Assembly: GCF_900182705.1 (NCBI RefSeq)
Contig: NZ_FXTP01000014.1
Span: 62,001 to 126,000 of the forward strand
DNA: 64,000 nucleotides
Direction: 5' to 3'
Source: Gracilimonas mengyeensis
GTDB lineage: Bacteria; Bacteroidota; Rhodothermia; Balneolales; Balneolaceae
Positions 20,402 through 22,140 of the stretch are shown here, piece after piece (positions within the stretch are counted from its first letter, which is position 1; the number at the start of each line of letters is the position of its first letter). The position numbers and the translations under genes are program-made. The notes under the pieces are model-generated. The model made no database searches. It was not told where the DNA came from and worked only from the letters and a program-made list of their open reading frames with translations.

Positions 20402-20517
20402 GCCGGATTCACTTCGTTACAGGGATTTACTTTTGCAAATCCGACCTTCTGATCCCTAAATCTTTTCGGCAAGGTAAGCATTCCTGAAGAGAGTCTGAGA
20501 GCAGACTTTTATCAGAC

Positions 20518-20713
20518 AGATCTTTTAAGTCTTGGCCTTAACAGTACACGCTAACGCGCAGCAGACATGGTACAATGCCAGAAGTCTGCAAGTCTCCGAC
20601 TTACCTTCCGCTCGTAACTATGACGTGATTATTTACGCCATAGGCAAACAAGTCAATCCTTGGCACTAATTACCCACCCCTTAATCCCCGCCCGAGCGGG
20701 GAAATTCCTTGGG
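20518..20713. repeat. G1 repeat joined to A element, copy 3
   Basis: G1 (about 20518-20656) contains AGATCTTTTAAGTCT, TCTGCAAGTCTCCGACTTAC and GTGATTATTTACGCCATA. A related tract (G2) lies at 21518-21652. G1 runs directly into the entry word TCCTTGGCACTAATTACCC and A element 3, which has palindrome CCCCGC-CCGA-GCGGGG (20687-20702). In G2 the same position leads into a different element (C1), so the modules are interchangeable at the CCTTTGCACC word. Confidence 0.65.
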
Positions 20714-20789
20714 CAGATTTGAAAATGAATTCAACGAACAGGCCATTAGCTCACATGGATTAATTTCTTAGGATTTAGCCAAGGAGTTT

Positions 20790-20820
20790 CCTCTCCTGGG
20801 AGAGGATTAAGGTGAGGGTG
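20790..20820. repeat. B palindromic element, copy 2
   Basis: CCTCTCCTGGGAGAGGATTA then AGGTGAGGGTG. The imperfect palindrome CTCTCC-TGG-GAGAG sits beside the ATTAAGGTGAGGGTG leader. It forms an inverted pair with A3 about 80 bp upstream and ends 71 bp before the DUF559 start. Confidence 0.7.
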
Positions 20821-20891
20821 AGATGTAACAAAGGAGTTAGAGGTTGCGGATGTCCAATAAATATCCTTCATTCAAAATAAAAGAGGGTTTA

Positions 20892-21263
20892 ATGGGGAAA
20901 AGATTGCCAATTATTCCATATCGACATGATTTGATAGAAAAAGCCCGATGGCTACGGAAAAATTCTACACCCGGTGAAATTGAGCTTTGGAAAGGTTTAA
21001 AAGGCAGACAAGTTTTAGGTTACAAATTCCGAAGACAGCAGCCCCTCCATTCTTTTATTGTGGATTTCTACTGCCGTGAACTAAAGTTAGCTATAGAAGT
21101 GGATGGTATAAGCCACGACTATAAAATTGAATACGACAGAGATCGACAATATCTCATCGAACAGTTTGGAATACATTTTTTACGGTTTAGTGAACCTGAT
21201 GCTAAAAATCATACTAATTCCGTAATTATGCAGATTGAAGAATGGATAGTTGATAACCGGTGA
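20892..21263 (+). CDS. DUF559 family endonuclease-like protein
   Basis: A protein of about 123 residues from the DUF559 group, a small PD-(D/E)xK-fold relative of Vsr mismatch endonuclease. The family words are all present: LIEKARWLRKNSTPGEIELW, LKGRQVLGYKFRRQQPL, FIVDFYC (candidate catalytic Asp), LAIEVDGISHD (candidate Glu and Asp) and the C-terminal FGIHFLRF. I prefer the ATG at 20892 (MGKRLPIIPYRHD), where the family usually begins and which has an AGAGGG stretch upstream; an in-frame ATG at 20844 is possible. The gene is alone, with B2 upstream and A4 17 bp after the stop, and a 3' remnant of a second copy 700 bp downstream. The cellular role of DUF559 is not established. Confidence 0.85.
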   Translation: MGKRLPIIPYRHDLIEKARWLRKNSTPGEIELWKGLKGRQVLGYKFRRQQPLHSFIVDFYCRELKLAIEVDGISHDYKIEYDRDRQYLIEQFGIHFLRFSEPDAKNHTNSVIMQIEEWIVDNR

Positions 21264-21279
21264 TGAGCAACTTTTATAC

Positions 21280-21335
21280 CCTTTGCACCATTTAACCCAC
21301 CCCTTAATCCCCGCCCAAGCGGGGAAATTCTTTGG
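21280..21335. repeat. A palindromic element, copy 4
   Basis: Entry CCCTTTGCACCATTTAACCC, leader CACCCCTTAATCC, palindrome CCCCGC-CCAA-GCGGGG (21311-21326), then AAATTCTTTGG. It starts 17 bp after the DUF559 stop. The copy at 22085-22140 has the same relation to the DUF559 remnant. Confidence 0.75.
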
Positions 21336-21411
21336 TTCTATCAAATGCTGAAGAAAAGAGATTTTTAATAGCACCAATGATTTAATTACCCAAAATTTGC
21401 ACAACGCATTT

Positions 21412-21442
21412 CCTCTCCCGGGAGAGGATTAAGGTGAGGGTG
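21412..21442. repeat. B palindromic element, copy 3
   Basis: CCTCTCCCGGGAGAGG is a perfect 16-nt palindrome, followed by ATTAAGGTGAGGGTG. It lies about 77 bp after A4 in inverse orientation, the same A-to-B geometry as at 69-232 and 20659-20820. Confidence 0.75.
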
Positions 21443-21517
21443 GAATGTGGCTAAAGAATTTAAGTCGATTTTCAAGCTAAGTTTGTACCATTTCCGTTGT
21501 GAATGTTAGCCAAAGAT

Positions 21518-21652
21518 CTTTTAAGTCTGAGACTTAAAAGTACCAGCAAATGGAAAGCAGACAGGGCCTGATGTTAGAACTTGCAAGTCTCTGACTTGCT
21601 CTACACCCCAGAACTTTGGCACGATTGTTTGTGCCATAAGTATATAATTCGA
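21518..21652. repeat. G2 repeat
   Basis: Diverged partner of G1: AGATCTTTTAAGTCT, CTTGCAAGTCTCTGACTTGC, CACGATTGTTTGTGCCATA. GACTTGCAAG-like inverted words give it hairpin potential. It leads into the CCTTTGCACC entry word of element C1. Confidence 0.6.
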
Positions 21653-21727
21653 ACCTTTGCACCAACACCTCTCACAATCAGTACAGGAAAAGCTGTACTG
21701 ATTGATCTCTCCTCAAGGAGAGACGCT
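21653..21727. repeat. C1 double-hairpin element
   Basis: After the entry word CCTTTGCACCA comes ACACCTCTCAC, then a perfect 11-bp stem CAATCAGTACA (21675-21685) / TGTACTGATTG (21694-21704). A second hairpin CTCTCCT-CA-AGGAGAG (21707-21722) follows. C2 has the same flanks and second hairpin with a different first stem. Confidence 0.7.
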
Positions 21728-21786
21728 CCCGGTAAATATTATAGCATGGGTGCTTATACTGGGGATCAGAAACCGAATCTATCACG

Positions 21787-21870
21787 AAAAAGTCCTCTCT
21801 TGAGGGAGGTGGATTGCGCAGCGAAAGCGGAGCAAGACGGAGGGTGTTTTCCTGGAGAGCAAGGGACTTC
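21787..21870. repeat. Inverse-oriented CTCTCTTGAGGGAGG element
   Basis: GTCCTCTCTTGAGGGAGGTG begins a tract containing GATTGCGCAGCGAAAGCGGA and CAAGACGGAGGGTGTTTTCC. Read on the minus strand it starts CACCCTCCGTC and ends in the CTCCCTCAAGAGAGG hairpin, similar to the second hairpin of C1 and C2. It lies between C1 and C2 in opposite orientation. Confidence 0.5.
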
Positions 21871-21890
21871 GAAAATGGGCTGGAATAGCC

Positions 21891-21966
21891 TTGGCGCAAA
21901 CACCTCTCACGACCAATTCAAGAACTAATTGAATTGGTCGATCTCTCCTCAAGGAGAGACTTCTCA
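21891..21966. repeat. C2 double-hairpin element
   Basis: Entry GCCTTGGCGCAAACACCTCTCAC leads to a perfect 11-bp stem CGACCAATTCA (21910-21920) / TGAATTGGTCG (21930-21940) and then CTCTCCTCAAGGAGAG (21943-21958). The first stem shares little sequence with that of C1, yet both are perfectly paired. The element abuts the DUF559 remnant. Confidence 0.7.
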
Positions 21967-22068
21967 CAGTTCGGAATACACTTTTTACGGTTTGATGAAT
22001 CAGACGCTAAAAATTATACTGATTCCGTAATTATACAGATCGAAGAATGGATAGTTGATAACCAATGA
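21967..22068 (+). pseudogene. 3' remnant of a second DUF559 gene
   Basis: In frame this reads QFGIHFLRFDESDAKNYTDS and so on to VDNQ and a TGA stop. About 27 of 33 residues match the C-terminus of the intact DUF559 protein at 20892-21263. DNA similarity continues past the stop through GATGAGCAACTTTTATACCC into an A element. There is no start and the catalytic part is missing; the left break coincides with the end of C2. The surviving frame has no internal stops, so the truncation may be fairly recent or the divergence limited. Confidence 0.8.
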
Positions 22069-22084
22069 TGAGCAACTTTTATAC

Positions 22085-22140
22085 CCTTGGTACCATTTAC
22101 CCACCCCTTAATCCCCGCCCATGCGGGGAAGTTCTTTGGG
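22085..22140. repeat. A palindromic element, copy 5
   Basis: CCTTGGTACCATTTACCC, CACCCCTTAATCC, then CCCCGC-CCAT-GCGGGG and AAGTTCTTTGG. It is 17 bp after the stop of the DUF559 remnant, exactly as A4 follows the intact gene. Confidence 0.75.

Follow-up and report, generated by a model that had tools for sequence, protein, structure and literature searches.

BoxC/PIT repeats have been known in Escherichia coli since the 1990s, and their function is not agreed, while DUF559 is a widespread small protein family, found from E. coli to cyanobacteria, whose function is unknown. REP/REPIN elements are short palindromes with a one-sided tag, the GTAG at the palindrome base, and are paired with RAYT (TnpA-REP), a tyrosine transposase of the HUH, Y1 type. 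The triplex repeats of E. coli were tied by Holder et al. (2015) to genome instability; that study observed triplex in vitro and no stable triplex in vivo by footprinting, reported no mobility gene near the motifs, and made no mention of ycjD or of a nuclease (PMC4666352). CGTC-tagged REPs, likewise widespread tagged palindromes, were reported without a dedicated transposase by Di Nocera et al. in 2013 (PMC3733652). In Caulobacter, the DUF559 protein VsrA has been studied as a repair enzyme and, in cells lacking a cytosine methyltransferase, provokes the SOS response (PMC12907096); this implies that the DUF559 family can damage DNA in vivo.

The window locus and its triplex motif

Within the window, by which we mean the whole 64-kb stretch of Gracilimonas mengyeensis DNA that was analysed, a mosaic of several repeat types about 1.6 kb long (positions 20500-22140) is flanked by genes for a methylmalonyl-CoA mutase and for a Big_5-domain protein. 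As the initial annotation had described, it holds one intact DUF559 gene on the forward strand (20892-21263; PF04480, 97.5 bits, 5e-28, with a TTG start possible at 20844) and the 3' remnant of a second in the same orientation (about 21966-22068), the stretches 21161-21311 and 21966-22116 being 85% identical. Foldseek searches with an AlphaFold2 model of the intact protein (pLDDT 86.9) returned 3HRL, itself a DUF559 protein, then the homing endonuclease I-Bth0305I (rank 2, TM 0.63/0.77) and Vsr, and these matches, with the PF04480 profile, bear out the PD-(D/E)xK Vsr-like fold proposed earlier. Residues D57, E68, D70 and H74 are invariant in DUF559. On the profile and the model, DUF559 is a predicted nuclease resembling Vsr and I-Bth0305I, with a domain of PD-(D/E)XK type.

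One inverted pair of A and B elements stands on each side of the intact gene, the two members about 82 bp apart, so the order and the spacing of about 80 bp first noticed were correct. The upstream unit has A element 1 at its left end (20672-20705, forward strand; leader ACCCACCCCTTAAT and palindrome CCCCGC..GCGGGG) and B element 1 at its right end (20787-20819, reverse strand; palindrome followed by the reverse-complement leader). The downstream unit has A element 2 on the left (21295-21328, forward strand), with its leader toward the gene, and B element 2 on the right (21409-21441, reverse strand). Further along lie two forward-strand C elements of type II, of which copy 1 (21665-21723) consists of leader ACACCTCTCAC, a variable hairpin as second loop, and TCTCTCCTCAAGGAGAGA, and copy 2 (21900-21959) has a different but equally self-complementary loop hairpin; A element 3 (about 22099-22131, forward strand) is found downstream of the DUF559 remnant. 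The original count of three A, two B and two C elements stands, but it had overlooked a third, inverted C-type element of type II on the reverse strand (21794-21848), made of CCTCTCTTGAGGGAGG, a loop hairpin and GGAGGGTGT.

Other parts of the initial description needed revision. The 'G tracts' it had counted among the modules are present in two copies (20518-20583 and 21514-21579, 73% identical), but they are a separate repeat with nested AAGTC/GACTT palindromes and are not triplex-like. An A element had been placed 17 bp after each DUF559 stop; that distance holds to the CCTTTGCACC-like word, whereas the leader starts about 31 bp after the stop. The word itself had been thought to open almost every module, and was considered as a universal boundary. 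It occurs at 20 of 136 hairpin flanks, compared with 3.6% of stretches taken at random, and is thus enriched yet accompanies a minority of elements; the clean junctions at this word expected in orthologous loci were likewise not confirmed.

On the G-rich strand, the elements run from a purine arm through 3-4 nt into a G-rich stretch, which is the complement of the leader. The leader side mirrors the purine arm perfectly in 178 of 215 elements, T being allowed opposite A, as against 24 on the other side, and the mirror match per position is 0.96 for real leaders and 0.72 for shuffled ones. Loop 2 measures 3-4 nt in 140 of the 215. With the register fixed by G positions alone, the third strand carries T opposite an A of the R arm 114 times and A 42 times, and a mirror with T opposite A is the rule of the purine-motif DNA triplex. 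Since the leader corresponds to the third strand of a triplex motif, the elements are, by motif, members of the BoxC/PIT/TM intrastrand triplex repeat class, whose Y arm, R arm, third strand mirroring the R arm and short second loop are all found here. Their plan would be Y arm, loop, R arm, loop 2 and third strand, with the leader as the complement of the last. In the window, GGGAGAGGA-TTA-AGGTGAGGG of B element 1 forms such a mirror without a mismatch, T standing opposite A. In A element 1, judged by eye, the leader can be read on the G-rich strand as the third strand, where T faces a single C-G inversion.

Loop 2 is TTA/CCG-like in type I elements and a small hairpin of variable sequence in type II. 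Among 31 type II loop hairpins from the G. mengyeensis genome, 30 sequences are distinct, and the longest stem has a mean of 7.3 against 3.8 after shuffling, indicating that structure is kept while sequence changes. We also considered a G-quadruplex reading of the leader. It suits the A and type I elements, which have four G runs, but in B, fam2 and type II elements the runs are shorter or separated by a hairpin, and the triplex mirror fits better. The Rfam family whalefall-1 (RF01762, gathering 37) matches a type II element beside another DUF559 gene of this genome (L007:1339-1394) with 40.9 bits, and scores below gathering on C copy 1 (21666-21726, 28.4 bits) and C copy 2 (21901-21962, 31.2 bits). 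The conserved 3' part of whalefall-1 corresponds to the third strand of the type II element. Rfam lists the family as an sRNA, but it may represent a DNA element adjacent to DUF559.

Association of repeats and DUF559 genes

All seven DUF559 genes of the G. mengyeensis genome are bracketed by leader-plus-hairpin repeats, and the repeat variant differs by gene: A/B type at the window gene (L002), GACCTC-leader type at L001 and L003, CACCC type at L004, and CACATCC type with a variable hairpin at L005-L007. The 1.15 Mb scanned, a quarter of the genome, contains 87 pyrimidine/purine hairpins; 24 of them are no more than 700 bp from one of these seven genes, in about 1% of the sequence, which excludes chance. 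The remaining hairpins are mostly solo or paired copies of the same families as those flanking the genes.

The association extends far beyond this species. Through a profile search we assembled 80 DUF559 loci, each with 10 kb of sequence on either side; they represent more than ten phyla, including Bacteroidota, Cyanobacteria, Chloroflexi, Planctomycetota, Firmicutes, Thermotogota, Spirochaetes and others. A hairpin lies within 700 bp of the gene at 78 of the 80, and at two no elements were detectable. Hairpin density is 7.5-8.6 per kb in the first 100 bp and 0.06-0.1 per kb at 2-10 kb, and within non-ORF sequence only, the excess near DUF559 is still 14.6-fold. The initial annotation had predicted proximity far above chance, and had weighed against it a lack of association across genomes; the 78 loci and the non-ORF excess agree with the prediction. 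Leaders point toward the gene on both of its sides (52 toward and 7 away upstream, 57 toward and 7 away downstream).

Elements were also present beside DUF559 at five of six further loci from Alphaproteobacteria and Deinococcus, beside the DUF559 gene ycjD of E. coli and beside a Neisseria DUF559 gene; some of these further loci were judged by eye, because stems holding G or A escape the hairpin detector. One Pseudomonas plasmid DUF559 gene had no detectable elements, and a search of a phage collection gave two weak matches only. On a Sinorhizobium plasmid (L178, 3381-3484), the DUF559 gene is adjoined by elements that may resemble rhizobial RIME1 repeats. A link to CGTC-tagged REPs was not supported, as the GTCATTCC..GGAAT core, sought as a regular expression at the 80 loci, was not enriched near the gene (2 within 1 kb and 12 beyond). 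At L235:8707-8863, a CGTC-type REP (GTCATTCCCG..CGGGAATC) sits in sequence that is missing from the aligned sites of two relatives, L234 and L247.

Protein and element distances are correlated over all pairs (Mantel r 0.54, p 0.001) and over cross-phylum pairs (r 0.28, p 0.001), and the correlation is gone once the two proteins of a pair share less than 55% identity (r 0.06, p 0.18). Copy numbers are linked as well: in 80 genomes of the order, hairpin count tracks DUF559 count (rho 0.56, p 8e-8), whereas a mirror-image control does not (rho -0.02), and copies are thus not equally common where DUF559 is lacking, contrary to the second outcome that the initial annotation had weighed against its idea. 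In a wider set of 118 genomes from the phylum, rho is 0.39; it is 0.28 when the family of G. mengyeensis is left out, and 0.62 for family means. One genome, G157, has 37 hairpins and no DUF559 match; triplex-type repeats are abundant there (as at L271:12281-12360), and their partner has perhaps been lost or is a different one. In the E. coli genomes sampled, the median number of element places is 22 with ycjD and 6 without it, and strains without ycjD still keep element copies. Because the distribution of ycjD follows phylogroup (PMC12817139), this copy-number effect is confounded with phylogroup.

Sites with and without the gene

At one site in a related genus, genome G012 has the arrangement unit-gene-unit, and G016 and G028 have single units. 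The spacer of the G016 unit matches the right unit of G012 and that of G028 the left unit, which can be explained by two different crossovers between units. Loss of the gene is the simpler reading, and gain by the same route may also have occurred; the pattern fits loss by unit-unit recombination without any nuclease. The E. coli pstB-pstA interval contains an element in a K-12-like strain and in an O157 strain, and two other strains lack it; the 8-bp direct repeat AACCGTGT stands at both ends, and either insertion or deletion may account for the difference. Further E. coli sites are less clean, and one of four is a replacement and not a clean insertion. Calling unit insertions by pairwise alignment within genus g2 was set aside, most intergenic differences there being complex replacements, and no transposition event was found among the sites compared.

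DUF559 and its elements also occur inside protein-coding genes. They lie in frame within leuS and within hsdR: three genera share one insertion point in leuS, and a fourth genome has them elsewhere in that gene. Leaders point outward in the leuS cases, unlike at most intergenic loci, and relatives without the insert have a plain loop or other short inserts at this place. Judging by these genomes, the leuS loop is an insertion hotspot in an essential gene. The loop that hosts DUF559 in other genera holds other short, repeat-derived peptides in frame at three loci from Flavobacteriaceae-like genomes (L281, L291 and L292). In two related species, different small ORFs occupy a slot (L236:4565-4880 and L237:4776-4939) whose end is formed by the same triplex element, and triplex elements perhaps bracket other cargo too. 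The coexistence of unit-gene-unit and solo arrangements and the shared leuS site fit a homing-type invasion, and loss fits as well.

Proposed spread and relation to known systems

We favour, with some confidence, a single repeat-nuclease system made up of DUF559 genes and intrastrand-triplex repeats, in which recognition and cutting by the nuclease would drive the spread. As DUF559 sits almost everywhere between triplex-capable repeats, it is probable that a nuclease partners the BoxC/triplex repeats and that these spread together with it; binding, cutting and nuclease-caused spread are the steps that we infer. Elements would come as inverted pairs (units), with the nuclease gene between units or inside one. 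DUF559 would recognise its cognate element in extruded or single-stranded DNA, in triplex or hairpin form, as might arise at a replication fork, and would nick or cut it. Units would then reach new sites through repair that uses a copy-bearing template or through strand invasion from one unit into another, and the same repair route would let the gene re-enter sites that already bear units, while recombination between flanking units would delete the gene and leave solo units behind. More tentatively, and leaning slightly toward doubt, we suggest a bacteria-wide class of mobile DNA in which a Vsr-fold nuclease would cut the triplexes at its own borders and so move units, modules and in-frame inserts (leuS, hsdR), a class that would take in BoxC/ycjD of E. 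coli, repeats of several other phyla and the whalefall-1 'RNA' of Rfam.

The strongest alternative is that DUF559 is a host-useful repair nuclease relieving replication blocks at triplex repeats, on which the repeat depends in an addiction-like manner and by which it is not moved. An enzyme that copes with triplex-blocked forks would accompany the repeats, and the Vsr-like fold, the study of Caulobacter VsrA as a repair enzyme, and the findings that PIT elements block DNA polymerase in vitro and that TM loci are unstable (PMC4666352) all lend this weight. It does not alone explain several matched gene-repeat families per genome, or the joint insertions in frame, and we judge it unlikely, if deserving of serious attention. 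A role as regulatory parts, in which terminators or RNA structures of DUF559 transcription units were copied around later, would agree with the closeness of elements to both gene ends and with the Rfam listing of the type II form as whalefall-1 RNA. Many solo copies, however, have no gene beside them, copies are translated inside leuS and hsdR, and T opposite A is a DNA triplex rule; E. coli BoxC/PIT elements showed neither promoter nor terminator activity, and RNA does not form triplexes of the purine motif (PMC4666352). This explanation seems to us improbable.

Slightly less probable still is a passive accumulation, in which DUF559 genes and triplex repeats each gather on their own in intergenic sites that tolerate them. 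Other repeats do occur in intergenic regions and in the leuS loop, and the window locus does mix several repeat types, but independent gathering is hard to reconcile with an enrichment of about 15-fold within non-ORF sequence, with leaders facing inward on both sides of the gene, with the co-divergence of protein and repeat across phyla, or with a copy-number correlation that is absent in the mirror-image control.

If true, the repeat-nuclease system would add a non-HUH, structure-based route by which short repeats can spread. It suggests that selection keeps a DNA triplex motif across phyla and that some entries listed by Rfam as 'RNAs' are in fact elements of DNA. It further suggests that in-frame entry into essential genes is possible for a mobile nuclease. 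Linking DUF559 and BoxC also assigns to both a role that can be tested in laboratory E. coli (ycjD, BL21 and K-12). Both the repeat class and the protein family were known before; a link between DUF559 and BoxC/triplex repeats was not found in the open-access papers searched.

BoxC/PIT/TM_ECO repeats share the motif described here, and the TM_ECO type A sequence 'CCCTCGCCCCTCTGGGGAGAGGGTTAGGGTGAGGGG' is the element adjoining ycjD. TM_ECO no. 9 (MG1655 1,351,239-1,351,204) has both the sequence and the MG1655 position of the ycjD-side element, so this identity is one by sequence. Compared with the class as published, the hairpin-loop type II form and the gene partner are new. Homing endonucleases of the I-Bth0305I/Vsr fold resemble DUF559 in fold and in the insertion of a nuclease gene bracketed by matching sequence; unlike them, the present system involves no intron or intein, and its bracket is a repeat. 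The likeness to REP/REPIN elements and RAYT goes further, as it covers short palindromes with a one-sided tag, inverted pairs, many solo copies, and several families per genome, each matched to a gene flanked by its repeats; here, too, repeats flank the enzyme gene and form inverted pairs elsewhere. In contrast to RAYT, the protein here is DUF559 by Pfam and resembles Vsr and I-Bth0305I by fold, and in place of a GTAG tag there are C-rich, CACCCC(T)TAA-like leaders that correspond to the third strand of a triplex. Of the REP/RAYT-like system first suggested for this locus, the link to DUF559 is strongly supported across bacteria, whereas membership in REP/RAYT is contradicted by the Vsr-like fold and the C-rich leader. 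DUF559 and its repeats work like REP/RAYT and are not a member of it, the HUH transposase and the GTAG both being absent.
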